A program made the position numbers and the translations under genes. A stretch of DNA of 31,884 nt from a virus. Positions 4,299 to 31,884 of the stretch are shown here, piece by piece; positions within the stretch are counted from its first letter, which is position 1, and every line of letters starts with the position of its first letter. The stretch is taken from positions 1-31,884 of IMG/VR virus record IMGVR_UViG_3300045741_000146, one strand, 5' to 3'. The notes under the pieces were generated by a model. That model worked only from the letters and a program-made list of their open reading frames with translations, did no database searches and was not told the DNA's origin.

Positions 4299-4348
4299 TT
4301 CGGTAATTTATTGAAACTGTTGATATAAGTTTGTATGGAGGTGTTTAC

Positions 4349-5050
4349 ATGCACTATTTATACAGAATCACAGATACATTAAATAATAAAGTTTACATTG
4401 GTCAGGCAGTAAATATTCAAAGACGCTGGACAGATCATAAGTGGAATGCTAAACAAGAAAATGCAATTCAATATATTAGTCGAGCTATGAATAAATATGG
4501 AATTTCAAATTTTATTTTTGAAGTTATTGCTACTTGTCGCAATCAAGATGATGCTAATGAAATTGAAAGTATTTTAATAGAACAGTATAATAGTCGAAAT
4601 AAAGAATATGGTTATAATATCAAGCCTGGTGGAAATAACTCTCCTCAGGCAGAAGAAACGAAAGAAAAAATACGTCAAGCTACAATTAAACAAATTGCTG
4701 AAAAAGGCCATCCCGCTCAAGGCCACAAATGGAGTGACGAACAAAAAACAAATTTAAGCATAACTTTAAAAGCGTTGGATAAAGAAGCCATTTATACCGA
4801 AGAAGTTCGTCAAAGAATGTCTGAAGCTCATATAGGAATTAAAGACTCTGAAGAGACTAAGCAAAAGAAATCTGAAAGCATTAAAAATCAGTGGCAAATT
4901 CGAGGTAATTACGATTCTAAAAAATGCGAAGCTGCTTGTTGCGAAGTATCTGGCAAAGCTAAATATAAGATAATTAATGGAATTCGCTATTGCAATAAAC
5001 ATGGCTTACGAATGTTACGTTATAATAGATTAGATACTTTAGATAGCTAA
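4349..5050 (+). CDS. GIY-YIG homing endonuclease
   Basis: This is a free-standing mobile endonuclease that would cut a cognate site and spread by repair. The ATG at 4349 is chosen over an upstream in-frame TTG at 4331 because a strong GGAGGT site lies at 4337-4342. From this ATG: a GIY-YIG core at 3-18 (YLY...VYIG), Arg 25/26 after it, the metal-ligand Glu in the helix DDANEIESILIEQY (about 73), and YGYNIKPGGN at 87-96. Next come NUMOD3-like DNA-binding repeats of the type S-E-E-x-[K/R]-x-[K/R]-[M/K]-S. The C-terminus has a Cys/His-rich segment (CEAACC...C-x-x-H) that may bind zinc. It is unrelated to the flanking virion genes and more AT-rich than the capsid genes, so it is an inserted gene. 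Confidence 0.9.
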   Translation: MHYLYRITDTLNNKVYIGQAVNIQRRWTDHKWNAKQENAIQYISRAMNKYGISNFIFEVIATCRNQDDANEIESILIEQYNSRNKEYGYNIKPGGNNSPQAEETKEKIRQATIKQIAEKGHPAQGHKWSDEQKTNLSITLKALDKEAIYTEEVRQRMSEAHIGIKDSEETKQKKSESIKNQWQIRGNYDSKKCEAACCEVSGKAKYKIINGIRYCNKHGLRMLRYNRLDTLDS

Positions 5051-11013: not shown

Positions 11014-11733
11014 ATGGCTTTAAAACTATTACAACCAGGTTGCCAACCATTAGGTCAATTTGACGGTCTTGATACTGAAGTATTAACTCTTAAGGGTGGA
11101 GAAGTTGTTACATTAGTATCTTCTGTAGTACCACCAGGAGACAAGGCAGCAGCCGATTCTTTCGATGGTTATACTAACCCAGCTGGAACTCAAAAGCGTC
11201 CAGTCGTAACCAAGACATTAGACGCCTATGCTCGTCCATTAATGCTTGCTGATGAAGGTGTTTCTGGATACGGTACATTATTCGGTACTGTTGTTGGTGG
11301 TACTGTTGGTCAAACAACTTACGGTGTTGGATCTACTGTTCCAGCTTCTGCATTACTTGGACCACACACTGCAACTGGTTCTGGCAAAGTAACTTGCTGG
11401 GAAAAGCCAGGTCTTTACGCAGTATCTCTTGATGCATGCGACACTACTGTTTCTACAGGCCTTCAACCAACCAATACTACTATTGATACTGGTAAGCCAC
11501 TTTATTACACCACTGCTGGACTTTTGACTCCAAACGCCGCAGCAGCTCCATTAGGACTTGGTGGTGCACAAGTAGTTGTCGGTCGTTTCGTAGATTTCGA
11601 AACCAACGGTTCTTTGGTAACCACTCCAAACAGACTAGTTGCCGCTCTAAACAGCCCATCTGGTTTAATATCTTCAGTTGGTCCTCGTCAATTTGCTTTC
11701 GCAACTTTCTACTTCAACCCACCAGCAGCTTAA
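11014..11733 (+). CDS. Probable capsid decoration/stabilising protein
   Basis: This 239-residue protein has an AGGA ribosome site 7 bases before the ATG and lies directly upstream of the major capsid gene. It is Gly/Thr/Val/Pro-rich and beta-type, with few charges: MALKLLQPGCQPLGQFDG, repeated GT-V-G stretches near 90-110, and a C-terminal strand region (RQFAFATFYFNPP). Codons are strikingly different from its upstream neighbours: C-ending Phe, Asn, Tyr and CGT Arg codons are common, a mark of very high expression shared only with the capsid gene. An abundant capsid accessory protein fits best. The family is not identified by a diagnostic motif, and a tail-tube or other abundant virion protein is an alternative. 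Confidence 0.65.
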   Translation: MALKLLQPGCQPLGQFDGLDTEVLTLKGGEVVTLVSSVVPPGDKAAADSFDGYTNPAGTQKRPVVTKTLDAYARPLMLADEGVSGYGTLFGTVVGGTVGQTTYGVGSTVPASALLGPHTATGSGKVTCWEKPGLYAVSLDACDTTVSTGLQPTNTTIDTGKPLYYTTAGLLTPNAAAAPLGLGGAQVVVGRFVDFETNGSLVTTPNRLVAALNSPSGLISSVGPRQFAFATFYFNPPAA

Positions 11734-11740
11734 TCGCTCT

Positions 11741-11867
11741 GAATTGATTTAATTCTAGCCGAGTGGCTGGAAGAGACATGAAGTCTCAAATCTCGTAAAA
11801 AGGAACCACTCACTTTCTTTAAGTTAACTTTCAAGCTAGTAAGACTGGCAAAAAATTCCACTAGGAG
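11741..11867 (+). other. Structured leader upstream of the major capsid gene
   Basis: This 139-base gap is long for this region and holds several inverted repeats. GAATT/AATTC (11741-11755) encloses a 5-base loop. GAGTGG (11761-11766) pairs with CCACTC (11806-11811) around an inner hairpin GAGAC/GTCTC (11773-11787), whose 5' arm could instead pair with TCTC at 11791-11794. A palindrome AAGTTAACTT lies at 11821-11830. CTAGT (11836-11840) can pair with ACTAG (11860-11864), which overlaps the AGGAG ribosome site (11863-11867). The pairings are seen directly; a regulatory or RNA-stability role is inferred. Confidence 0.45.
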
Positions 11868-11872
11868 ATTTC

Positions 11873-12886
11873 ATGAATATGTTCAATCAACAAGGCCAAA
11901 TGAACGCCTCATCCCTTAAGGATGCATTACAAACTCTTGTTAAGTATGCCGCTGTTCTAGAAGAGAACACCCCATCTAACATGGGTCTTGCAGGTCAAAC
12001 TGCATTAAGCGACGATAAGCGTGATGAGCTTATTTCTCGTGCAATTATGACTCAAGATGGCAAGATTGCTTTAGCACAAGCTATGGCAAACCCAATCCGT
12101 AGAAACTTAGATTACCACGGTATCGCACGTAGAGCACTTGTAGTAGATCCTCTACCACAAGGAGCAATGCCAACTTACGATAGAGATATCGATGTTGCTG
12201 CCGTTGTTATTTCTTCTAACGGTACTGGTCCAGAATCTAGAGTTTTCGGTGACAGAGTAGTTGTTCCAGAATTCGAAATTTACGCAAACCCAACTGTACG
12301 TATCGCTGAAGTAAAGCGTCGTAGATTTAATGTTATCGACAGAGCTGTTCAAAAGGCACGTCAAGAAATCATGGCACAAGAAGATGCAAACATTTTCGCA
12401 GCTCTTGATGCAGCATCTTCTGTTGAAAACGTCTTAACTGACATCGCAGATGCAGGTCTTCTTAAGAGAGACCTTGTTGAAATCAAGCAACAAATTGATC
12501 GTTGGGACTTAGTTACTACTAAGTACTTCATGAACATCAATGAGTTCACTGATATCCTTAAGTGGGGAGCTGGTGGCGGACAAGGTGTCGGTGGTGGTGA
12601 CTTCGATCCAGTAACTATGAGAGAAGTTCTACAAACTGGTCTTTATGCCCACATCTGGGGAACTGACATTATGGTATCTAAGATCGTTCCACCAGGAACC
12701 ATCTACGGTGCAGCAGATCCAGAGTTCGTTGGAGTAATGCCAATTCGTCAAGACATTGAAGTTCTTCCAGCAGATGAACCAAAGCAACTTAAGTTAGGTT
12801 GGGTTGTTTCTGAAATCATCGGAATCGCTATCGTTAACCCACGTGGTTGCGCAGCAGGAAGAAAGAGCGTTGTTACTGGAGCTTAA
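11873..12886 (+). CDS. Major capsid protein, HK97-type
   Basis: This 337-residue protein has a strong AGGAG ribosome site 5 bases before the ATG. The sequence has the feel of large myovirus capsid proteins: NPIRRNLDYHGIARRALVVD, then a beta region (RVVVPEFEIYANPTVRIAE), a long helix (VIDRAVQKARQEIMAQEDAN), and a C-terminal region with IWGTDIMVSKIVPPGTIYGA and a terminal GCAAGRKS. Residues 1-27 form a short helical arm ending in KYAA (24-27), which could be a cleaved propeptide. Codon choice is strongly biased to C-ending and CGT codons, in line with the most abundant virion protein. A strong terminator follows. Assignment rests on sequence character and context, without a database search. Confidence 0.82.
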   Translation: MNMFNQQGQMNASSLKDALQTLVKYAAVLEENTPSNMGLAGQTALSDDKRDELISRAIMTQDGKIALAQAMANPIRRNLDYHGIARRALVVDPLPQGAMPTYDRDIDVAAVVISSNGTGPESRVFGDRVVVPEFEIYANPTVRIAEVKRRRFNVIDRAVQKARQEIMAQEDANIFAALDAASSVENVLTDIADAGLLKRDLVEIKQQIDRWDLVTTKYFMNINEFTDILKWGAGGGQGVGGGDFDPVTMREVLQTGLYAHIWGTDIMVSKIVPPGTIYGAADPEFVGVMPIRQDIEVLPADEPKQLKLGWVVSEIIGIAIVNPRGCAAGRKSVVTGA

Positions 12887-12936
12887 TCCTAATAACACTA
12901 TATACTTAACCTTGATTTTAATCGTAGGTTGATTTT

Positions 12937-12964
12937 AAAAAAGCCATCGAAAGATGGCTTTTTT
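12937..12964 (+). terminator. Rho-independent terminator after the capsid gene
   Basis: A perfect stem GCCATC/GATGGC (12943-12958) with a GAAA tetraloop is flanked by six A on the left and six T on the right. The A tract lengthens the stem and would let it work on both strands. A weaker inverted repeat (AACCT...AGGTT) lies just upstream at about 12908-12930. It closes the head module. Confidence 0.92.
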
Positions 12965-13005
12965 GTTGTTATATGGCAGGTGTATATGTTAAATAAAGGA
13001 TTATT

Positions 13006-13845
13006 ATGATTTCAATTAATTTATATGAAGAATGTAAAAAATTATATTTAGAAGGCATGTCTGTTGCAAAAATTTGTGAATTAAAAAAATTAGATAGACA
13101 CAATTTGTCAAAAAAATTTAAAAAAGATAATTTAGAGGTCAAAAAAGGATTTTCTTATGCACGCAAATATAATCTTAATGAACATTATTTTGATGTAATT
13201 GATACTGAAGAAAAGGCTTATATTTTAGGTTTTATATATGCTGATGGCAACAATTTATTTCAAACAAATAGAGTTGCAATACAATTATCTATTGTAGATA
13301 AAGAAATACTTGAAAAATTTTCTCAAATTATGTTTGGTCAAGAAAATTTAAAATATTGTAAAAAGAAAAATAATAAAGGTAAAGAATTTGAATATGTTAG
13401 TTTAAATATGTATAGTGAGTATATGAGTCGTCATCTTGCAACTTTAGGTATAATCGAGCGCAAATCAAAATTAATTACATTTCCAGAATGGCTTGATAAA
13501 TCATTATATAAACATTTTATTAGAGGATTAATTGATGGAGATGGTTGGATTTATTTGGCAGAAAATAATAGATTAAGTCCAAATGTAGGTTTAATATGTA
13601 CTCGTCAAATAAATGATAAATTATCAATTTTATTTGAAAAACAATTAGGTCTTAAAAGTTATCTTTGTAAAGCGAATAAACAAGATTTTGATGTAATGTG
13701 TGAAATTAGAATAAAAAATTATCATCAAACTAAAATTTTACTTGATTGGCTTTATAAAGACGCTACTATTTATTTGAAAAGAAAATATGATTTATATCAA
13801 AATTTCCTTTATAAGTATGATAATATAAGAGATCAAAATAAGTAA
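13006..13845 (+). CDS. LAGLIDADG homing endonuclease
   Basis: This 279-residue protein has an AAAGGA ribosome site 5 bases before the ATG. An N-terminal helix-turn-helix-like segment (EGMSVAKICELKKLDRHNLS, about 16-35) is followed by two LAGLIDADG motifs, AYILGFIYADG (71-81) and HFIRGLIDGDG (170-180), each ending in the acidic residue that binds the catalytic metal. Two motifs in one chain mean it acts as a monomer. The order and spacing match single-chain enzymes. It sits right after the capsid terminator, between head and fibre genes, and uses more AT-rich codons than the capsid gene. It is probably an intact, free-standing selfish gene. Confidence 0.9.
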   Translation: MISINLYEECKKLYLEGMSVAKICELKKLDRHNLSKKFKKDNLEVKKGFSYARKYNLNEHYFDVIDTEEKAYILGFIYADGNNLFQTNRVAIQLSIVDKEILEKFSQIMFGQENLKYCKKKNNKGKEFEYVSLNMYSEYMSRHLATLGIIERKSKLITFPEWLDKSLYKHFIRGLIDGDGWIYLAENNRLSPNVGLICTRQINDKLSILFEKQLGLKSYLCKANKQDFDVMCEIRIKNYHQTKILLDWLYKDATIYLKRKYDLYQNFLYKYDNIRDQNK

Positions 13846-13884
13846 ATACTACATAATTTAATATTTCTATAGGTAGGACTTCAT

Positions 13885-14841
13885 ATGGCAACTAAATATC
13901 CAGCACAAATAGATACCACAACAAATCTACCAACACAAGTTGATGATTCATCTGCTGTGACTGGCAAATCTGTCAATGATTTGCGAGATACTATTTTAAG
14001 AATTGAAACTGAGCTTGGTGTTAAACCAAGTGGAACTTATGGAACCGTTCGCGCCCGTTTAGATGCATTAGAAGCATTAATCGGTAGTGGAAGCGGTGGA
14101 GTTCATTTAGGCGGCGATTTAGGTGGCACTAATAACACTCCTAGAGTAATTGGCTTGAGAGGCATTCCAATTTCTAGCATTAGCCCAATACCAGGACAGG
14201 TACTTGGATTTGATGGCCTTGCATGGACTCCAGTAAATGGTGGCGGTGGCCCAGGAGTTACGTTTGATGTTTCTTTATTTGGACTAAATTTTGTTGAAGT
14301 TGGTGAAATAGTTAATGGTCCAGTATTTACAGCAATGTATAATAATACTCCTGTTAGTGCAACACTTACTGATAATTTTTATAATGTTCCATTAGATGTT
14401 AGTGCAACACCATATTTATTTTCAAGTAATGAAGGCTTTTTGATGAACACCGCTGGAGCCAGCGTAATATTTACATTAACTGCAAGTGACGGTGCTCATA
14501 ATGGTACTGATACTAATGTTCTTATTTGGGTAGAAAAAATTTATTATGGGGTTGGTGCTCCAGGACAAAGCTCAGCTTCATTTATTAAAAATTTACCTGG
14601 TGTATTATCTGGAACTCAATTAGAAAGTTTTACAGTTAATCCAACTTCAAGTGAAAAAATTTATTATGCATTTAGAACTGGAATGACTGTTCCAACATTT
14701 TATTTTAATGGTTTTTCTGGTGGATTTACTTTAGTTTCTACAACTATTGCAGTTACTAACACTTTTGGAATAACTGAAAATTATACATTATATGAAAGCG
14801 ATAATATAGGATTGGGTTTGACTACAGTATACTTGCTATGA
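13885..14841 (+). CDS. Tail fibre/adaptor protein
   Basis: This 318-residue protein has an AGGTAGGA ribosome site 5 bases before the ATG. The N-terminal part (TQVDDSSAVTGKSVNDLRDT, then a helix with RARLDALEALIG) is of the type found in phage baseplate or fibre adaptors. Next is a Gly-rich turn and the fibre signature LGGDLGGTNNTPRVIGLRG, then PGQVLGFDGLAWTPV. The C-terminal 200 residues are Thr/Ser/Asn-rich beta structure with an aromatic-rich end, probably a binding tip. The LGGDLGG and GQVL-x-x-DG-x-x-W-x-P elements recur in the downstream fibre genes, which suggests a shared attachment or trimerisation unit. Confidence 0.75.
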   Translation: MATKYPAQIDTTTNLPTQVDDSSAVTGKSVNDLRDTILRIETELGVKPSGTYGTVRARLDALEALIGSGSGGVHLGGDLGGTNNTPRVIGLRGIPISSISPIPGQVLGFDGLAWTPVNGGGGPGVTFDVSLFGLNFVEVGEIVNGPVFTAMYNNTPVSATLTDNFYNVPLDVSATPYLFSSNEGFLMNTAGASVIFTLTASDGAHNGTDTNVLIWVEKIYYGVGAPGQSSASFIKNLPGVLSGTQLESFTVNPTSSEKIYYAFRTGMTVPTFYFNGFSGGFTLVSTTIAVTNTFGITENYTLYESDNIGLGLTTVYLL

Positions 14842-22799: not shown

Positions 22800-24023
22800 T
22801 TAAAATTTTCTTGCAACTTCTAATAAATGATATTTAGTATTATGTTCAGGGGTCTTTAATATTTCTAAATAACACGCCTCTAAAGCTTGTTTAATTCTTG
22901 GCCCAGCTGTCATTCCAGCGGCAAGCAAATCATTTCCATTTATATTCATTTGTCTTTTTGCCAAAACAATTTCATTATCAAATTTTGCAAGTTGATTTCT
23001 AGATCCCATTCCTAACGCTTCAGTTAATTTACAAAATTCTTCTAATGTGTGTTCCCAGTGGTCAGGCGCATGATTTTTAATCACTGCCATAAAGCTCTTA
23101 TAAGCCAAGGCGCTGTCTTTTTGAACAAAAATTTTGTATCTCTCTAAAATCTCTAATAAAAACAATACTTTATTGAGTTCTTTATTGGAAAACTTTAAAG
23201 ACATTAGTTCTTCTTTAACATTTTGAATAATAGAATTATTATATAGATAAGCTAATTTTGTTTCAAATTCTGCTTTTAAATTATCTAAATGCAATAGTGT
23301 ATTATTAGATTTATTTAATAGCGGACATATAATTTCTAAAGCTCCGCATTTTTGCAATAGTTGCATACCATATGAAGAGTTAGATGACATTATAATCTTG
23401 TGTAATTCATCTTGAATTCGCTCTTTTGAAACCAATTTAAGTGTTTCTAAATTTTTTCCCATAGCATCAAATGTATTAGATTCTACAGAATATCCAAAAC
23501 GAGCTGCAAATCTAGCTACTCGCATTATTCTTAGTCCATCTTCTTGGAATCTAAAATTAGCATCACCAACTGCCTTAATAATTTGATTATTAAGATCTTC
23601 AATTCCTTTAAATGGATCAACTAAAGAGTTATTTAAAGGGTCGTAAGCTATTGCATTGATAGTTAAATCTCTTCTTGATAAATCTTGATCAATATTCATT
23701 ACAAAAAAGACTTCTTCTGGCCTTCTACCGTCAGTATAAGCGCCCTCAATTCTAAAAGTTGTTACTTCAAAATGATTTTCAACACCAACGCCCATGGCAA
23801 CGGTTACAGTTCCATGTTGTAATCCAGTAGGAATAGTTTTAGGAAAAATTTTTATAACTTCTTTTGGAGGAGCATCTGTGGCAATATCCCAGTCTTTTGG
23901 AGTAGTTCCAAGAAGAAGGTCTCTTACACATCCGCCTACGATAAAGGCTTGATATCCGTTTTCATTCAGAATTTTACAAATTGAAACGGCTTTCGTGTTA
24001 ACTAATTTTTGTAAATTTAACAT
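22800..24023 (-). CDS. cca: CCA-adding tRNA nucleotidyltransferase (class II)
   Basis: This enzyme adds or repairs the 3'-CCA end of tRNAs. The ATG at 24023 gives 407 residues; a GTG two codons upstream (24029) is also possible and neither has a clear ribosome site. Motif A is GGCVRDLLLG (30-39) with catalytic Asp 44 and 46 in PKDWDIAT. EVTTFRIEG and the Arg/Asp strand SRRDLTINAIAYDP (116-129) form motif B. DPFKGIEDL is motif C, EDGLRIMRVARFAARF (161-176) is motif D, and the helical tail is full length for the family. It is the only minus-strand gene and lies between fibre genes. On its strand TTGACT and TATTTT are spaced 16 bases apart but only 6 bases before the ATG, so a leaderless start is possible. 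No tRNA gene is seen in the window. Confidence 0.93.
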   Translation of the reverse strand: MLNLQKLVNTKAVSICKILNENGYQAFIVGGCVRDLLLGTTPKDWDIATDAPPKEVIKIFPKTIPTGLQHGTVTVAMGVGVENHFEVTTFRIEGAYTDGRRPEEVFFVMNIDQDLSRRDLTINAIAYDPLNNSLVDPFKGIEDLNNQIIKAVGDANFRFQEDGLRIMRVARFAARFGYSVESNTFDAMGKNLETLKLVSKERIQDELHKIIMSSNSSYGMQLLQKCGALEIICPLLNKSNNTLLHLDNLKAEFETKLAYLYNNSIIQNVKEELMSLKFSNKELNKVLFLLEILERYKIFVQKDSALAYKSFMAVIKNHAPDHWEHTLEEFCKLTEALGMGSRNQLAKFDNEIVLAKRQMNINGNDLLAAGMTAGPRIKQALEACYLEILKTPEHNTKYHLLEVARKF

Positions 24024-24077
24024 GCGCACAAAATAAATCTTAAAAAAATGGAGTCAAGGGCCTTACAAAATTATATG

Positions 24078-24885: not shown

Positions 24886-25482
24886 ATGGATGAATTTGCA
24901 CCATATCTTAAAAAGAATGGAACTTTTGTAGTTAAAAATATAACGCCAGATCAAAATAAAACAATAAAAATTTTTAACTATCCAATTCTTTTTAATCAAA
25001 CGCGCGATTTACTTCAAATTCCTGGAGTAGCAGAACAAGATATTAGAGCTTCTCTTTTAAAAGGCGAGTTAAGACATAAAATTTTAGCTCAAGATATTGT
25101 AATTGTGTCTAGTGATATTGATTTGTTACAATTCAATACTGCACAAAAACAATTTTTACAAAATGCTGGAATAATTAATGGATTACAAATAACATCTTCT
25201 AATTTAAGTGTTTTAAGACAAGAAGATATTCAATTAATTGGAACTGTAGATAATATAAATACTGTTTTTCAAATTCCTACTGGAAAATTTTTACAAAACT
25301 CTAACTATAAAATCATAGTATATAAAAACGGTGTTAAGCAATTATATCTTGATGATTATTTCATTGCTGAAAGTGGTGGTCCAGGAACCGGATATGATAC
25401 TGTAATTTTTACTGTTGCCCCAACTACAATACCAGCTCCTGTTGATGTAATTACTGCTGACTATTATATTTCTAACACTTAA
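24886..25482 (+). CDS. Fibre-associated connector-like protein
   Basis: This 198-residue protein has a strong AAGGAA ribosome site 6 bases before the ATG. The N-terminus ([20 protein letters not shown], then [20 protein letters not shown] and GELRHKIL) followed by [14 protein letters not shown] is a type seen in large phages next to fibre genes. The C-terminal 60 residues ([20 protein letters not shown]) resemble the NG-x-x-L-x-x-x-x-D-Y beta unit found in phage fibre tips and adaptors. It may join the giant fibre to the tail. Its stop is two bases before the fibre start, so expression is coupled. Confidence 0.65.
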
Positions 25483-25484
25483 AT

Positions 25485-28400
25485 ATGACAAAAATAAATT
25501 CCAATCAAATTAAAGGGGTTCCAACCGGCTCAGGCGGAGGCGGTGGTGTAAGCTCTGGAATTTATGTTTTAAATAATACTGGAACTGGATTAGTAAATAC
25601 ATTAAACATTCATGGTAATGGCGTTGTTGTTGTTTCAAGTGGAGCATCATCTGATATTTTAATTAATACATCTGCTTCTGGAACTCAAGGGCCACAAGGA
25701 TCTCCTGGTGTTACTGGCGTTCAAGGACCACAAGGATCTCCTGGTGTTACTGGTCCTGCTGGATTGCAAGGTATTCAAGGTAGTCCAGGAGTTACTGGTC
25801 TTCAAGGCCCAACTGGATCTCAAGGCCCTCAGGGCGCACAAGGATCACCTGGAGTTACTGGCCCTCAAGGAATTCAAGGCATTCAAGGATCTCCAGGAGT
25901 TACAGGAGCAACGGGACCTACTGGGCCTCAAGGATTACAAGGACAACAAGGTTCTCCTGGAGTTACTGGATTACAAGGTCCAACTGGATCTATTGGCCCT
26001 CAGGGTCCACAAGGATCTCCTGGCGTTACTGGTCCACAAGGTCCAACCGGATCTGCCGGACAAAACTCATTTAACACAACTCCAACTTATTCTCAAAATA
26101 ATTTAGGTCCAGTTTCAGTAGTCTCTGGAGCTTATCAGGGCTGGGAACAAGTCGGTCAAGCTGTATTTGTTGGTACTGGAGGCTATTACGTAGTTACAGG
26201 CATTTCGGGAACCAATCTTGTTCTAGCTAACCTTGCAAGTAATCTTCCAAGCGGCACTGTAATTAATGCAAGTAACATCTCTCCTGGAGGCATACCTGGA
26301 GTTACAGGACCTACTGGATCTATTGGCCCTCAAGGTAATCAAGGAAGTCCGGGAGTAACAGGAACTCAAGGACCAACTGGAACTATTGGCGCAACTGGAC
26401 CAACTGGCCCACAAGGTAATCAAGGGTCTCCAGGAGTAACTGGGCCTACAGGACCTCAAGGTCCGCAAGGAAGTCAAGGATCAACTGGATCTATTGGACC
26501 TCAAGGATCACCTGGTGTAACAGGCGCTCAAGGACCAACAGGATCTGCTGGACAAAATGCCTTTAATACAACTCCAACTTATACTCAAAATAATGCAGGT
26601 TTAGTTTCTGTAGTGTCTGGAGCATATCAAGGTTGGGAACAAGTTGGTCAAGTTGTATTTATTCAAACTGGTGGTTATTATGTTGTTACAGGTATATCAG
26701 GAACTAATTTAGTTCTAGCTAACCTTGCAAGTAATCTTCCAAGTGGTACTATAGTAAATTTTGCTAATATTTCACCAGGAGGCATACCTGGAGTTACAGG
26801 ACCACAAGGCCCTCAAGGTATTGGTGCTTCTGGTATTCCAGGTCCAACCGGCCCAACAGGACCACAAGGACCACAAGGCCCACAAGGATCCCCTGGCGTA
26901 ACAGGAGTAACAGGGCCTACTGGGCCTCAAGGACCACAAGGAAGCCCTGGAGTTACTGGAGTAACAGGCCCAACTGGACCTCAAGGTAATCAAGGCTCTC
27001 CTGGTGTTACAGGTCCTACAGGACCTCAAGGCCCTCAAGGAAGTCAAGGATCAACTGGATCTATTGGCCCTCAAGGTTCTCCTGGAGTAACAGGAACACA
27101 AGGTCCAACTGGAACAATTGGAAGAGATTCATTTAATAGCACCGCAACATTTACTCAGAATAACTCTAATCAAGTAACAGTAGTGTCTGGCGCTTATGCA
27201 GGTTGGGAGCAGTTAGGTCAGGCTGTTTATATAGGAACTGGCGGTTATTATGTAGTTACAGGTATATCTGGAACCAATTTAGTTCTAGCTAACCTTGCAA
27301 GTAATCTTCCAAGTGGTACTATAATTAATGCAAGCAATATTTCACCAGGAGGCATACCGGGAGTAACAGGACCAACAGGATCTATTGGTCCTCAAGGATC
27401 TCCTGGCGTTACTGGAACTCAAGGACCACAAGGATCACCTGGTGTTACTGGAACTCAAGGTCCAACTGGAACTATTGGAGCAACTGGTTCCCAAGGCCCA
27501 CAAGGAAGTCCTGGAGTAACAGGTGTAACAGGTCCAACTGGCCCAGCGGGATCTCAGGGATCACAAGGTTCTCCTGGTGTTACAGGTCCAACCGGACCTC
27601 AAGGCCCACAAGGAAGTCAAGGATCAACTGGATCTATTGGACCTCAAGGACCAACCGGATCTGCTGGACAAAATGCCTTTAATACTACAGCTACGTTTAC
27701 TCAAAACAATTCTAATCAAGTAACTGTTGTCTCTGGAGCCTATCAAGGCTGGCAACAATTAGGCCAAGCTGTATTTGTAGGAACAGCTGGATACTATGTT
27801 GTTACAGGTATATCTGGAACCAATTTAGTTCTAGCTAACCTTGCAAGTAATCTTCCAAGTGGTACTATAATTAATGCAAGTAACATCTCTCCTGGAGGCA
27901 TACCTGGTGTAACTGGTCCAACAGGATCAATTGGACCTCAAGGAAGCCAAGGAGCAACAGGATCAATTGGACCTCAAGGTATTCAAGGAAGCCCCGGAGT
28001 AACAGGTGTAACAGGACCTACTGGGCCTCAAGGACCACAAGGAAATCAAGGAAGTCCTGGAGTAACTGGTGTTACAGGGCCTCAAGGTAATCAGGGATCA
28101 CCTGGAGTAACAGGACCACAGGGACCACAAGGAAGTCAAGGATCAACTGGATCAATTGGACCTCAAGGATCACCTGGTGTAACAGGAACACAAGGCCCAA
28201 CAGGAACAGTTGGACAAAACGCCTTTAATACTACAGCAACATTCACTCAGAATAACTCTAATCAAGTAACTGTTGTTTCTGGCGCATATGCTGGATGGGA
28301 GCAGTTGGGCCAGGCTGTTTATATAGGTACTGGAGGCTATTATGTAGTAACTGGAATTAGTGGAACTAATCTTGTTTTAGCTAACCTTGCAAGTAACCTT

Positions 28401-31400
28401 CCAAGTGGTACTGTAATAAATGCAAGTAATATTTCACCAGGAGGTATACCTGGAGTTACAGGGCCTACTGGATCAATTGGTCCTCAAGGGTCTCCTGGTG
28501 TTACTGGAACTCAAGGTCAACAAGGATCTCCAGGAGTAACAGGCCCAACCGGACCTCAAGGCCCACAAGGAAGTCAAGGATCAACTGGATCTATTGGCCC
28601 TCAAGGAAGTCCAGGAGTAACTGGCGCTCAAGGACCAACAGGAACTGTAGGTAGAGATTCTTTTAATACGACACCTACTTACTCTCAAAACAACTTAGGC
28701 CCAGTTTCTGTAGTATCTGGAGCTTATGCAGGTTGGGAACAGTTAGGCCAGGCTGTTTATATTGGTACTGGAGGATATTATGTAGTCACAGGTATATCTG
28801 GAACTAATTTAGTTCTAGCTAATCTTGCAAGTAACCTTCCAAGTGGTACTGTAATAAACTTCTCTAGTATATCTCCAGGAGGTATTCCTGGAATAACAGG
28901 ACCTACTGGTTCTCAGGGACCTCAAGGATCACAAGGATCTCCAGGAGTAACAGGTCCAACCGGACCTCAAGGCCCACAAGGAAGCCCTGGAGTTACTGGA
29001 GTAACAGGCCCAACTGGACCTCAAGGTAATCAAGGCTCTCCTGGTGTTACAGGTCCAACCGGACCTCAAGGCCCTCAAGGAAGTCAAGGATCAACTGGAT
29101 CTATTGGACCTCAAGGATCACCTGGTGTTACTGGTCCAACTGGTGCTGCTGGTAGAGATTCATTTAACACCACGCCTACATTTACACAAAATAATTCAAG
29201 TTTAGTTTCTGTTGTGTCAGGCGCCTATGCTGGCTGGGAGCAATTAGGTCAAGCTGTTTATATCGGTACTGGAGGCTATTACGTAGTAACTGGCATATCT
29301 GGAACTAATCTTGTTCTAGCCAACCTTGCAAGTAATCTTCCAAGCGGTACTGTAATTAACGCAAGCAACATATCTCCCGGAGGAATACCTGGAGTAACAG
29401 GACCACAGGGACCACAAGGAAGTCAAGGATCAACTGGATCAATTGGACTTCAAGGTATTCAAGGATCTCCAGGTATAACTGGCGCAACGGGACCTACTGG
29501 ACCTCAAGGACCACAAGGAATTCAAGGCTCTCCTGGTGTTACGGGAGCAACTGGACCTACTGGGCCAGCAGGATCTCAAGGACCTCAAGGATCACCTGGT
29601 GTTACTGGACCAACCGGACCTCAAGGACCACAAGGCCCTCCAGGAAGTGGAAGCGGTGGTGGAGGAGCTACATTTGCAAGCCAATTTACTGCAGGGCTTG
29701 TTAATATGCCAGCTGGAGATCTTTCAGGTAGAAGTTCAAGTGCAACAGCCCCAACTATTAATAAATTAACTGGAGATGCTACTGGTGGAATTCAACTTCC
29801 AACTGGTGGATTCATTTATTATGGTGGTAGTGTATCATCTTCTATTGCAACTGGATTAGTAAGACTTCCATATATAATTAATGATGGCACTACTACAAGT
29901 AATATTCCGGTAGTTGCTGCCCCTGGATTTAATCCAGGAACTTTTGTAAATCTTCTTGGTCTTGGATATGATAATCTTAATGGTACTACATATTTAACAA
30001 TAAATCATGGGTGGGATTCTTCTGCACCTGGTGGTGGCGGGCCTCACAATCATAGATTTGGTTTTAATCAATATGTTGTATTTACTGACTCAAATATTAA
30101 CAATTATTTTGCTTTGGATGCAAATAGGCCTGGTGGTATTCCGGCAGTAATTATTCCTGCTCCAAATATGTATTTTGGTAACATTAAAGATCAGCCAAAT
30201 GGAAATCATAATTTAATTATGGTTCCAATGAATTCTGATAATGTTACTCAAGATCTTTCAATAATTGCTCAAGCTCCATTTTCTACAGCAACAGTTAATA
30301 GACAACCAGGTGATATAAATCTTAATATTCCTCAACCAGTTGGTACTGGAATAATACCTTATGGTAAAATATTCTTTACACAAGGCGCATCTGGAGGTCT
30401 TTCTGGAATATCAGCTTCTGGAATGGCTGAAATAAGTAGAGATTCAAAAGGTGCTCCATATATTGCAATATATGGGCCTGCATCTTCAACTGGAATGCTT
30501 AGTTTCCAAGTTCAATCTGGAGTAGCATCTTATACATTAAATTGGCCAAATGCAGTTGGTGCAGCTGGAAACGTATTATCAACAGATGCTGTTGGTAATT
30601 TGTCTTGGGTCACTCAAAGTGCATCATCTGGTGGCGGTGCTGGAGTAACATTAGCCACTCAGGCAACTCCAGGTGTTCTTTATCTTCCTGCTGGAGATTT
30701 AAATGGAACGGGATCAAATGCAACCGGCCCAACAATTTCTAAATTAAGTGGCGATGCATCTGGTATGATTCAAATACCAACAGGAGTGGCCGCTTATGTT
30801 GGAGGATCTGTTGGATCTGCAGCCCCTACTGGCTTAATAAGATTACCATATGTTTCAAATATAATTGGTAAAAATTTTGCAATTATAAATGCACTTGGAC
30901 ATACTGGTTCTTATGGAATATTATCTACTTCTATAGATTCATCAGCAACAGCAGATCAAATTAATGTCGGCGATTTAACTAAAAATACCGGAAATGAATT
31001 ACTTTCATTAAATGCTCAAAATCAAATCTTCTTTGCTGTAAATACACCATCTACTATAGCTACTGGATTAAATCCAGCTAATGCAAATGCAGTTATTATT
31101 AGTAGAGATGCAAATAATGCGCCATTCCTTGGAATATATGGCCCATCTGGAGCAACTGGATTAATGACATTTAAGGTCCAATCTGGAGTTGCCTCTTATG
31201 CATTAAATTGGCCAAATGCAGTTGGACCAAGTGGTAATTTCTTATCAACAGATTCTGTTGGTAACTTATCTTGGCAGCCACACATTATATTGCCAGCAGG
31301 AGACTTAAGTGGAACAGGATCAACTACGACTGGCCCAACTATTTCTAAATTAAGTGGAAATGTTTCTGGAACAGTTCAAATTCCATCAGGAATTGGATTA

Positions 31401-31884
31401 TATGTTGGTGGCGCTGGTCAATCAGCGGCAGCTACTGGAATTTTAAGATTACCATTTGCCGGCCCAACAAATAATTCATTTCCAGTTATTGATGTTCTTG
31501 GACAAAGTGGTTCATATAATATATTATCATACGGTGTTGATCAATCTTTTAAATCAGATGAAATAAATATAGGTGATGTTAATAAGCTTGCTGGAAATAA
31601 TTTATTAATATTTGGCGCTCAAAATATAATTCAATTCCAAGTAAATACTCCATCTACTACAGCAACTGGATTAACTATAGCTAATACCAATGCTATTACA
31701 ATATATAGAGATACATTAAATGCTCCAGTATTAGGAATATATGGACCTTCTGGCGCAACTGGATTAATGACATTTAAGGTTCAATCTGGAGTTGCTTCTT
31801 ATGCTTTAAATTGGCCAAATGCAGTTGGACCAAGTGGTAATTTCTTATCAACAGATTCTGTTGGTAATTTATCTTGGCAATCTG
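25485..31884 (+). CDS. Giant collagen-like tail fibre (3' end outside window)
   Basis: The frame opens at ATG 25485, two bases after the previous stop, and stays open to the window end: 2,133 codons without a stop. There is no clear ribosome site, so translation is probably coupled. Parts: a short N-terminal head with a Gly-rich linker (about 1-65); a collagen-like stalk of units such as [10 protein letters not shown]; seven copies of an 80-residue globular module separated by Gly-X-Y stalks (module 1 starts at codon 193); a final stalk ending in GSGSGGGG (about 1,385); then a second repeat family starting with PAGDLSG and ending GNLSWQ. Collagen stalks trimerise, so this is likely a very long, flexible trimeric fibre. 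Function in adhesion is inferred. Confidence 0.88.
25684..29650 (+). repeat. Collagen-like Gly-X-Y stalk segments
   Basis: Stalks between the globular modules are 252, 330, 306, 306, 198 and 261 bases long, plus one leading and one trailing stalk. They are built from [20 protein letters not shown] and [10 protein letters not shown] units with many Pro and few charges. The 330-base stalk has one break in the triplet phase ([12 protein letters not shown]), a two-residue slip; the others keep the triplet phase. Confidence 0.9.
26061..29393 (+). repeat. Seven 240-base globular modules in the giant fibre
   Basis: Copies lie at 26061-26300, 26553-26792, 27123-27362, 27669-27908, 28215-28454, 28653-28892 and 29154-29393; each is exactly 80 codons. 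The core VSGAY-[Q/A]-GW-[E/Q]-Q is followed by [20 protein letters not shown] (one copy has AGYYVV) and SNLPSGT, and each ends SPGGIPG. Variation is mostly in the first 25 residues. The module starts with either Q-N-[S/A]-F-N or R-D-S-F-N. Confidence 0.93.
29706..31884 (+). repeat. Second repeat family in the giant fibre
   Basis: Units begin at about 29706, 30684 and 31290 with [L/M]PAGDL-[S/N]-G and TISKLSG-like strands, continue with Y-[V/G]-GG and TG-[L/I]-[V/I/L]-RLP[Y/F], and close with [22 protein letters not shown] and DSVGNLSWQ. The first unit is 978 bases and carries an extra insert; the second is 606 bases. The third is nearly complete at the window end and the family probably continues. 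Confidence 0.88.

Follow-up and report, generated by a model that had tools for sequence, protein, structure and literature searches.

Organization of the fibre gene and its neighbourhood

The window, i.e. the whole stretch of 31,884 bases that was analysed, is a complete IMG/VR record, and its end is occupied by a giant collagen-like fibre gene on the + strand (25485..31883). The open reading frame runs for 2,133 codons without a stop and leaves the contig before terminating, so that the gene lacks its 3' end here. The N-terminal part (25485..25682) comprises an anchor-like motif, a linker rich in Gly and a small domain of non-collagen type (...DILINTS), and is followed by the first Gly-X-Y stalk (25683..26060). 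Seven beads, each with a 77-aa core, can then be observed in the same orientation: bead 1 at 26061..26291, bead 2 at 26553..26783, bead 3 at 27123..27353, bead 4 at 27669..27899, bead 5 at 28215..28445, bead 6 at 28653..28883 and bead 7 at 29154..29384. The Gly-X-Y stalks that separate them, also on the + strand, measure 87 aa (26292..26552), 113 aa (26784..27122), 105 aa (27354..27668), again 105 aa (27900..28214), 69 aa (28446..28652) and 90 aa (28884..29153), and the last stalk of ~87 aa (29385..29645) has a GPQGPPG end that passes into a Gly/Ser linker. The remainder (29646..31883, +) is a non-collagen C-terminal part built of repeated domains of ~200 aa with the pattern LPAGDLxGTGS...NWPNAVGxxGNxLSTDxxGNLSW, in which an exact 62-nt repeat recurs at a spacing of 603 nt. 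About 745 residues of this part lie in the window, and the 3' truncation of the gene falls inside it; a domain resembling the repeat is present in the second fibre of a related contig, L011.

An earlier, sequence-only reading had described seven modules of identical length threaded on Gly-X-Y stalks of varying length (198-330 nt), within a frame unbroken for more than 2,130 codons and running past the window. This architecture was confirmed: the modules are 80 codons long by the borders used in that reading and, given beads of this length, its stalk lengths correspond to the 69-113 residues found between the 77-residue cores. The reading made no mention of the conserved N-terminal motif, of the ~745-residue C-terminal part with its ~200-residue domains or of the truncation within that part.

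The Pfam Collagen family (PF01391) matched the whole fibre protein in 16 stretches (E 1.8e-107), and no other Pfam domain was found in it, nor in the N-terminal part searched alone. Pfam and PHROG searches with the C-terminal part within the contig gave no match. The PHROG matches of the fibre are mainly to tail fibres, with the collagen repeat driving them. In the stalks, Thr occupies 34% of the Y positions in the window and 27-57% in the relatives, and charged residues amount to 0-4%.

The major head protein gene (11873..12886, +; phrog_2522, E 1.7e-76) encodes a product that shares 53% identity with Bacillus phage G gp27 across 85% of its length, and because of this similarity the record probably represents part of a jumbo phage genome. 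A LamG-like protein and other fibre-like proteins are also encoded in the contig and, with the head protein, provide a virion-gene context. By eye, the open reading frames at 4331-5050 and 13006-13845 resemble homing endonucleases (GIY-YIG-like and LAGLIDADG-like, respectively); the latter lies just behind the head protein gene, where similar-looking frames are also found in L012, L009 and L017. A tRNA nucleotidyltransferase (CCA-adding-like) gene is present on the opposite strand (22800-24029), as well as in L012, and ARAGORN detected no tRNA in the window. A low-complexity protein with repeats of SASADDNDARKKKEESSSSSSD is encoded at 2101-2919.

The conserved locus and the bead family

Directly upstream of the fibre gene lies a gene of 198 aa (24886..25482, +), which is 61-81% identical in 11 IMG/VR contigs of up to 394 kb and had no match in the phages collection or in Pfam. 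A collagen-fibre gene is found behind it in most of these contigs; L018 and L019 carry the upstream gene with no collagen gene within the flank examined. In L020 and L021, both of one metagenome, the upstream gene is split over two contigs, which apparently belong to one L012-like genome. A scan of genome contigs did not find relatives. Behind the upstream gene, the fibres of L008/L011, L009, L012 (the same locus as L021), L013 (the same locus as L014), L015, L016 and L017 (two genes) begin with the motif M(S/T)K(V/I)NxxQIKG or a sequence very similar to it, and the fibres at this locus in L028 and L029 share the motif.

Behind this common beginning the fibres differ considerably. Beads resembling those of the window occur in two additional contigs, which come from one metagenome. 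L009 has at least 4 beads, and L011 carries 8 and 4 beads in two adjacent genes, of which the second (11230-14625) lies directly behind the first; in the tree, the two genes' beads fall into a common group. In the L012 fibre the seven beads are of a less specialised, general type. Other inserted domains can be observed in several of the fibres, and a C1q-like identity suggested by eye for an insert of L011 was not supported by Pfam. The sister fibres of L013 and L017 consist of ~1,490-1,560 residues of uninterrupted Gly-X-Y without any bead, and because such bead-free fibres exist at the same locus, beads are not an essential part: the constant parts are the stalk and the anchor, and beads are optional. 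The locus emerges as a conserved fibre locus of huge phages whose contents are swapped freely, with the N-terminal motif and the upstream neighbour remaining constant.

The seven window beads are 77-94% identical in protein and 74-84% in DNA. They contain an invariant block of 26 residues, and 11 of the first 25 alignment columns are variable, compared with 13 of the remaining 52, so that the earlier statement that they differ mainly in their first 25 residues is roughly right. The profile search proposed in the sequence-only reading was run and recovered homologous beads in ten other fibre ORFs. The bead profile reached E ~1e-48 on beads, whereas no reversed decoy scored above 6.8 bits, which is far beyond chance. 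When the profile was built from window-type beads only, the general beads were still detected at 1e-13 to 1e-10 and the beads of Nodularia phage (L022) at 1.4e-7, the best reversed decoy again scoring 6.8 bits. Bead 2 also matched phrog_31840, the family of the Nodularia phage gp45 bead, at E 0.0042. The iterated search yielded 66 beads, distributed over eleven fibre ORFs (a pair of these being copies of one), with 2-11 beads per fibre; bead number does vary between related phages. The window bead had no match in Pfam and PDB sequence searches, nor by tblastn against the phages collection, in which only the "generic" L012 bead reached the Nodularia phages.

The AlphaFold model of the bead is all-beta (mean pLDDT 74). 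Its best fold match is a Nodularia phage protein (TM 0.76, probability 1.00, E 1.3e-3), both structures being predicted; the third and sixth matches, with far weaker scores, are "Collagen triple helix repeat" proteins of uncultured phages. A fold search of the PDB returned weak beta-barrel matches only (best E 0.14). In an AlphaFold run with three beads no trimer was formed (pTM 0.24), which is a weak test. The bead is a member of a widespread, undescribed phage module that occurs in 2-11 copies per fibre, and the window fibre defines an unannotated fibre module without Pfam or PDB match. The claim that such an array is unusual for a phage was overstated, as homologous arrays are carried by further contigs of jumbo phages and by Nodularia phages in culture.

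Repeated sequences often fragment assemblies, and it was considered whether the bead pattern could have arisen by misjoining or multiplication of repeats. The records of the window, L008, L009, L028 and L029 do stop within the fibre gene, as would be expected of a repeat that is difficult to assemble. Against an artefact, the bead copies differ by 16-26% in DNA and are therefore distinguishable, the longest exact repeat in the fibre gene is 83 nt, below ordinary short-read length, and the frame stays open without a stop. Moreover, this architecture was met again in a number of independent metagenomes (other IMG/VR contigs) and in the genomes of isolates, the cultured Nodularia phages, where the linkers are short and Gly-rich. 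An artefact is therefore very improbable, and neither a stop nor an assembly error of the kind that the sequence-only reading had named as a possible refutation was found. The repeats hamper assembly but do not create the bead pattern.

The near-identity of the beads had been attributed to recent homogenisation or duplication. Among the window beads, 42% of the codons for identical residues differ synonymously (0.424, versus 0.558 expected under random codon choice), the same value as that found when the major head protein genes of the window and of L011 are compared (42%). In the L026 beads the synonymous difference is nearly random (0.615 versus 0.651 expected). Because the synonymous codons are so divergent, the copies must be old and their likeness in protein must be kept by selection; conserved amino acids combined with near-random synonymous codons indicate purifying selection on the bead protein. 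The idea that codons of the copies are actively selected to diverge was unsupported, since the observed difference does not exceed the random expectation. The beads therefore offer a clean natural case of repeats that are alike in protein while their DNA is nearly random.

Recent homogenisation or duplication was therefore rejected for the beads at large. Only a single tract looks recently exchanged, a stretch of ~13-15 codons (alignment codons ~58-71; ~27279-27320 in bead 3 and at the same place in every bead), in which the synonymous difference drops to 0.16-0.17 (clustering p 0.003). The possibility that this tract is a conserved DNA element was rejected, as 64-71% of its synonymous codons (0.64-0.71) differ between the window and its relatives. 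The tract fits a short recent gene-conversion tract. In the bead tree, all seven beads of the window cluster together and are separated from the L009 and L011 beads (support 96/83; 98% of bootstrap trees), and synonymous differences are 0.42 among window beads versus 0.56-0.58 between these and the beads of L009 and L011. The grouping and the lower differences within the window fit expansion or slow exchange within each lineage.

Sugar genes downstream of related fibres

In five related loci (L030 to L034, derived from G001, G002, G004, G006 and G010), a GT2 protein of 815-1,141 aa is encoded on the same strand ~0.1-4 kb past the collagen gene; the window contig ends before the corresponding place. 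These proteins have TPR-like parts and, in some cases, also methyltransferase and GT4-like parts. The GT2 gene is followed, with variation, by genes for GT4-like, cupin, C-methyltransferase, 4,6-dehydratase-like and Gfo/Idh/MocA oxidoreductase proteins, and often by a patatin-like gene. The arrangement of GT2-TPR and deoxysugar genes downstream of the collagen fibre is conserved in L030 (1028-9837), L031, L032, L033 and L034. Also in L030, a single phage protein (7165-8076) combines response-regulator and dual-specificity phosphatase domains. PF08421 was found once per record, downstream of the fibre, in all six large fibre-bearing records searched, and it is absent from the collagen-free G007, which also lacks the large GT and the C-methyltransferase.

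The stalks of the window are Thr-rich at their Y positions, and we tentatively propose, by analogy with BclA-like proteins, that these Thr residues may be O-glycosylated by the downstream GT2-TPR enzyme, using a deoxysugar that the neighbouring genes would produce. Such glycosylation would stabilise and mask the uncharged collagen. The enzyme set of the lineage (GT2-TPR, GT4, 4,6-dehydratase, cupin, C-methyltransferase and oxidoreductase) might then coat the stalks with a branched deoxysugar, a suggestion that we regard as equally tentative. If true, the coated stalks would be a viral counterpart of the spore BclA nap, and, should the stalks be the target of the sugar genes, virus-encoded collagen glycosylation would have a tractable case in these phages.

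On the other hand, there is close to an even chance that the GT and deoxysugar genes are unrelated to the fibre and instead alter the surface of the host or its polysaccharide (superinfection exclusion), or else phage DNA. Glycosyltransferase and deoxysugar genes of phages that lie near host-recognition genes are usually interpreted in this way (PMC7029224; PMC10202952), and the same gene set occurs without nearby collagen in L039, one of five close GT relatives (with L052, L054, L055 and L056) that have no collagen in the upstream flank examined. Association with collagen nevertheless follows relatedness of the enzyme: in a comparison of 80 GT loci, many of which share ancestry and are thus not independent tests, a same-strand collagen gene lies upstream in 14 of the 19 close relatives with at least 4.5 kb of upstream sequence (some being near-duplicates), versus ~2 of some 40 distant relatives. 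The lack of the large GT and the C-methyltransferase in the collagen-free G007 points in the same direction.

Role of the fibre and comparison with known systems

The fibre is real and well conserved; it is kin to known collagen-like phage fibres, and its bead family is undescribed. We consider it a collagen-stalked virion-surface fibre of a jumbo tailed phage that presents many beta-rich beads for host contact, a reading to which we assign a probability of about 0.68, its glycosylation being the less certain part. Three chains would be aligned by the N-terminal domain and wind into collagen triple helices, and three copies of a bead would therefore be shown at each bead position; the N-terminal motif would fix the fibre to the virion, and the stalks would determine reach and spacing. 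The beads and the C-terminal domains would touch the host surface through many weak sites. The multivalent adhesin proposed in the sequence-only reading is a plausible candidate function.

Two other assignments of function were weighed against a host-contact fibre. The beads might be structural rather than adhesive, spacers that at intervals re-register the three collagen chains and lock them against slipping while a very long fibre folds, the C-terminal domains alone binding the host. Collagens commonly need trimerisation domains, and the equal length of the beads, their strong protein conservation wherever they sit, the invariant block in their middle and their position between stalks of very different length would all suit this function, as would the precedent of PfC, the trimerisation domain of EPclA (PMC3368898). 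The beadless runs of ~1,490-1,560 Gly-X-Y residues in L013 and L017 argue that locking is not needed everywhere, and the N-terminal third of the bead is more variable than the remainder, a feature expected of an exposed surface; a pure spacer function is less likely than not. A location on the capsid has a fair, though less than even, chance: in the window and in relatives, the fibre is encoded downstream of the major head protein, and the collagen-like gp12 of SPP1 is a capsid-bound trimer (PMC7602432), so that the protein could be a head fibre or capsid decoration aiding loose surface attachment rather than a tail fibre. The gene of the homologous Nodularia bead protein, however, is flanked by those for the major tail protein and a lectin, and the PHROG matches are mostly to tail fibres, even if driven by the collagen repeat.

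Among known systems, the closest in bead sequence is the hypothetical protein gp45 of Nodularia phage vB_NspS-kac68v161 and its relatives, in which four consecutive beads belong to this family and whose gene adjoins tail and lectin genes. Its beads are ~24-30% identical to those of the window, they are joined by short Gly-rich linkers instead of collagen stalks, and its N- and C-terminal parts are different. The E. coli prophage fibres EPclA and EPclB resemble the window fibre in having collagen domains between globular domains; EPclA forms a trimer with a demonstrated collagen triple helix, which serves as a model for the fibre trimer proposed here, EPclB has two collagen domains with a Pf2 repeat between them, and stalk lengths in these fibres vary by multiples of three (PMC3368898). 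In contrast to the window fibre, they are far shorter, have at most one insert, contain a coiled coil and possess other globular domains (PfN and PfC). These terminal domains were not found by Pfam in the window fibre, whose true C-terminus lies beyond the contig. SPP1 gp12 is likewise a collagen-like trimer on the phage particle (PMC7602432), but it is small and no bead array has been described for it. For the stalks, the nearest parallel is BclA3/SgtA of Clostridioides difficile, in which the gene for a GT adjoins that for a collagen rich in GPT triplets, and the enzyme O-glycosylates Thr residues of the collagen region with GlcNAc (PMC7157674). BclA3 is a beadless spore protein and SgtA is small (358 aa), so the relation is by analogy only; the Thr-rich Gly-X-Y character of BclA/SgtA-type collagen is nevertheless shared by the window fibre, in which Thr makes up 34% of the Y residues.
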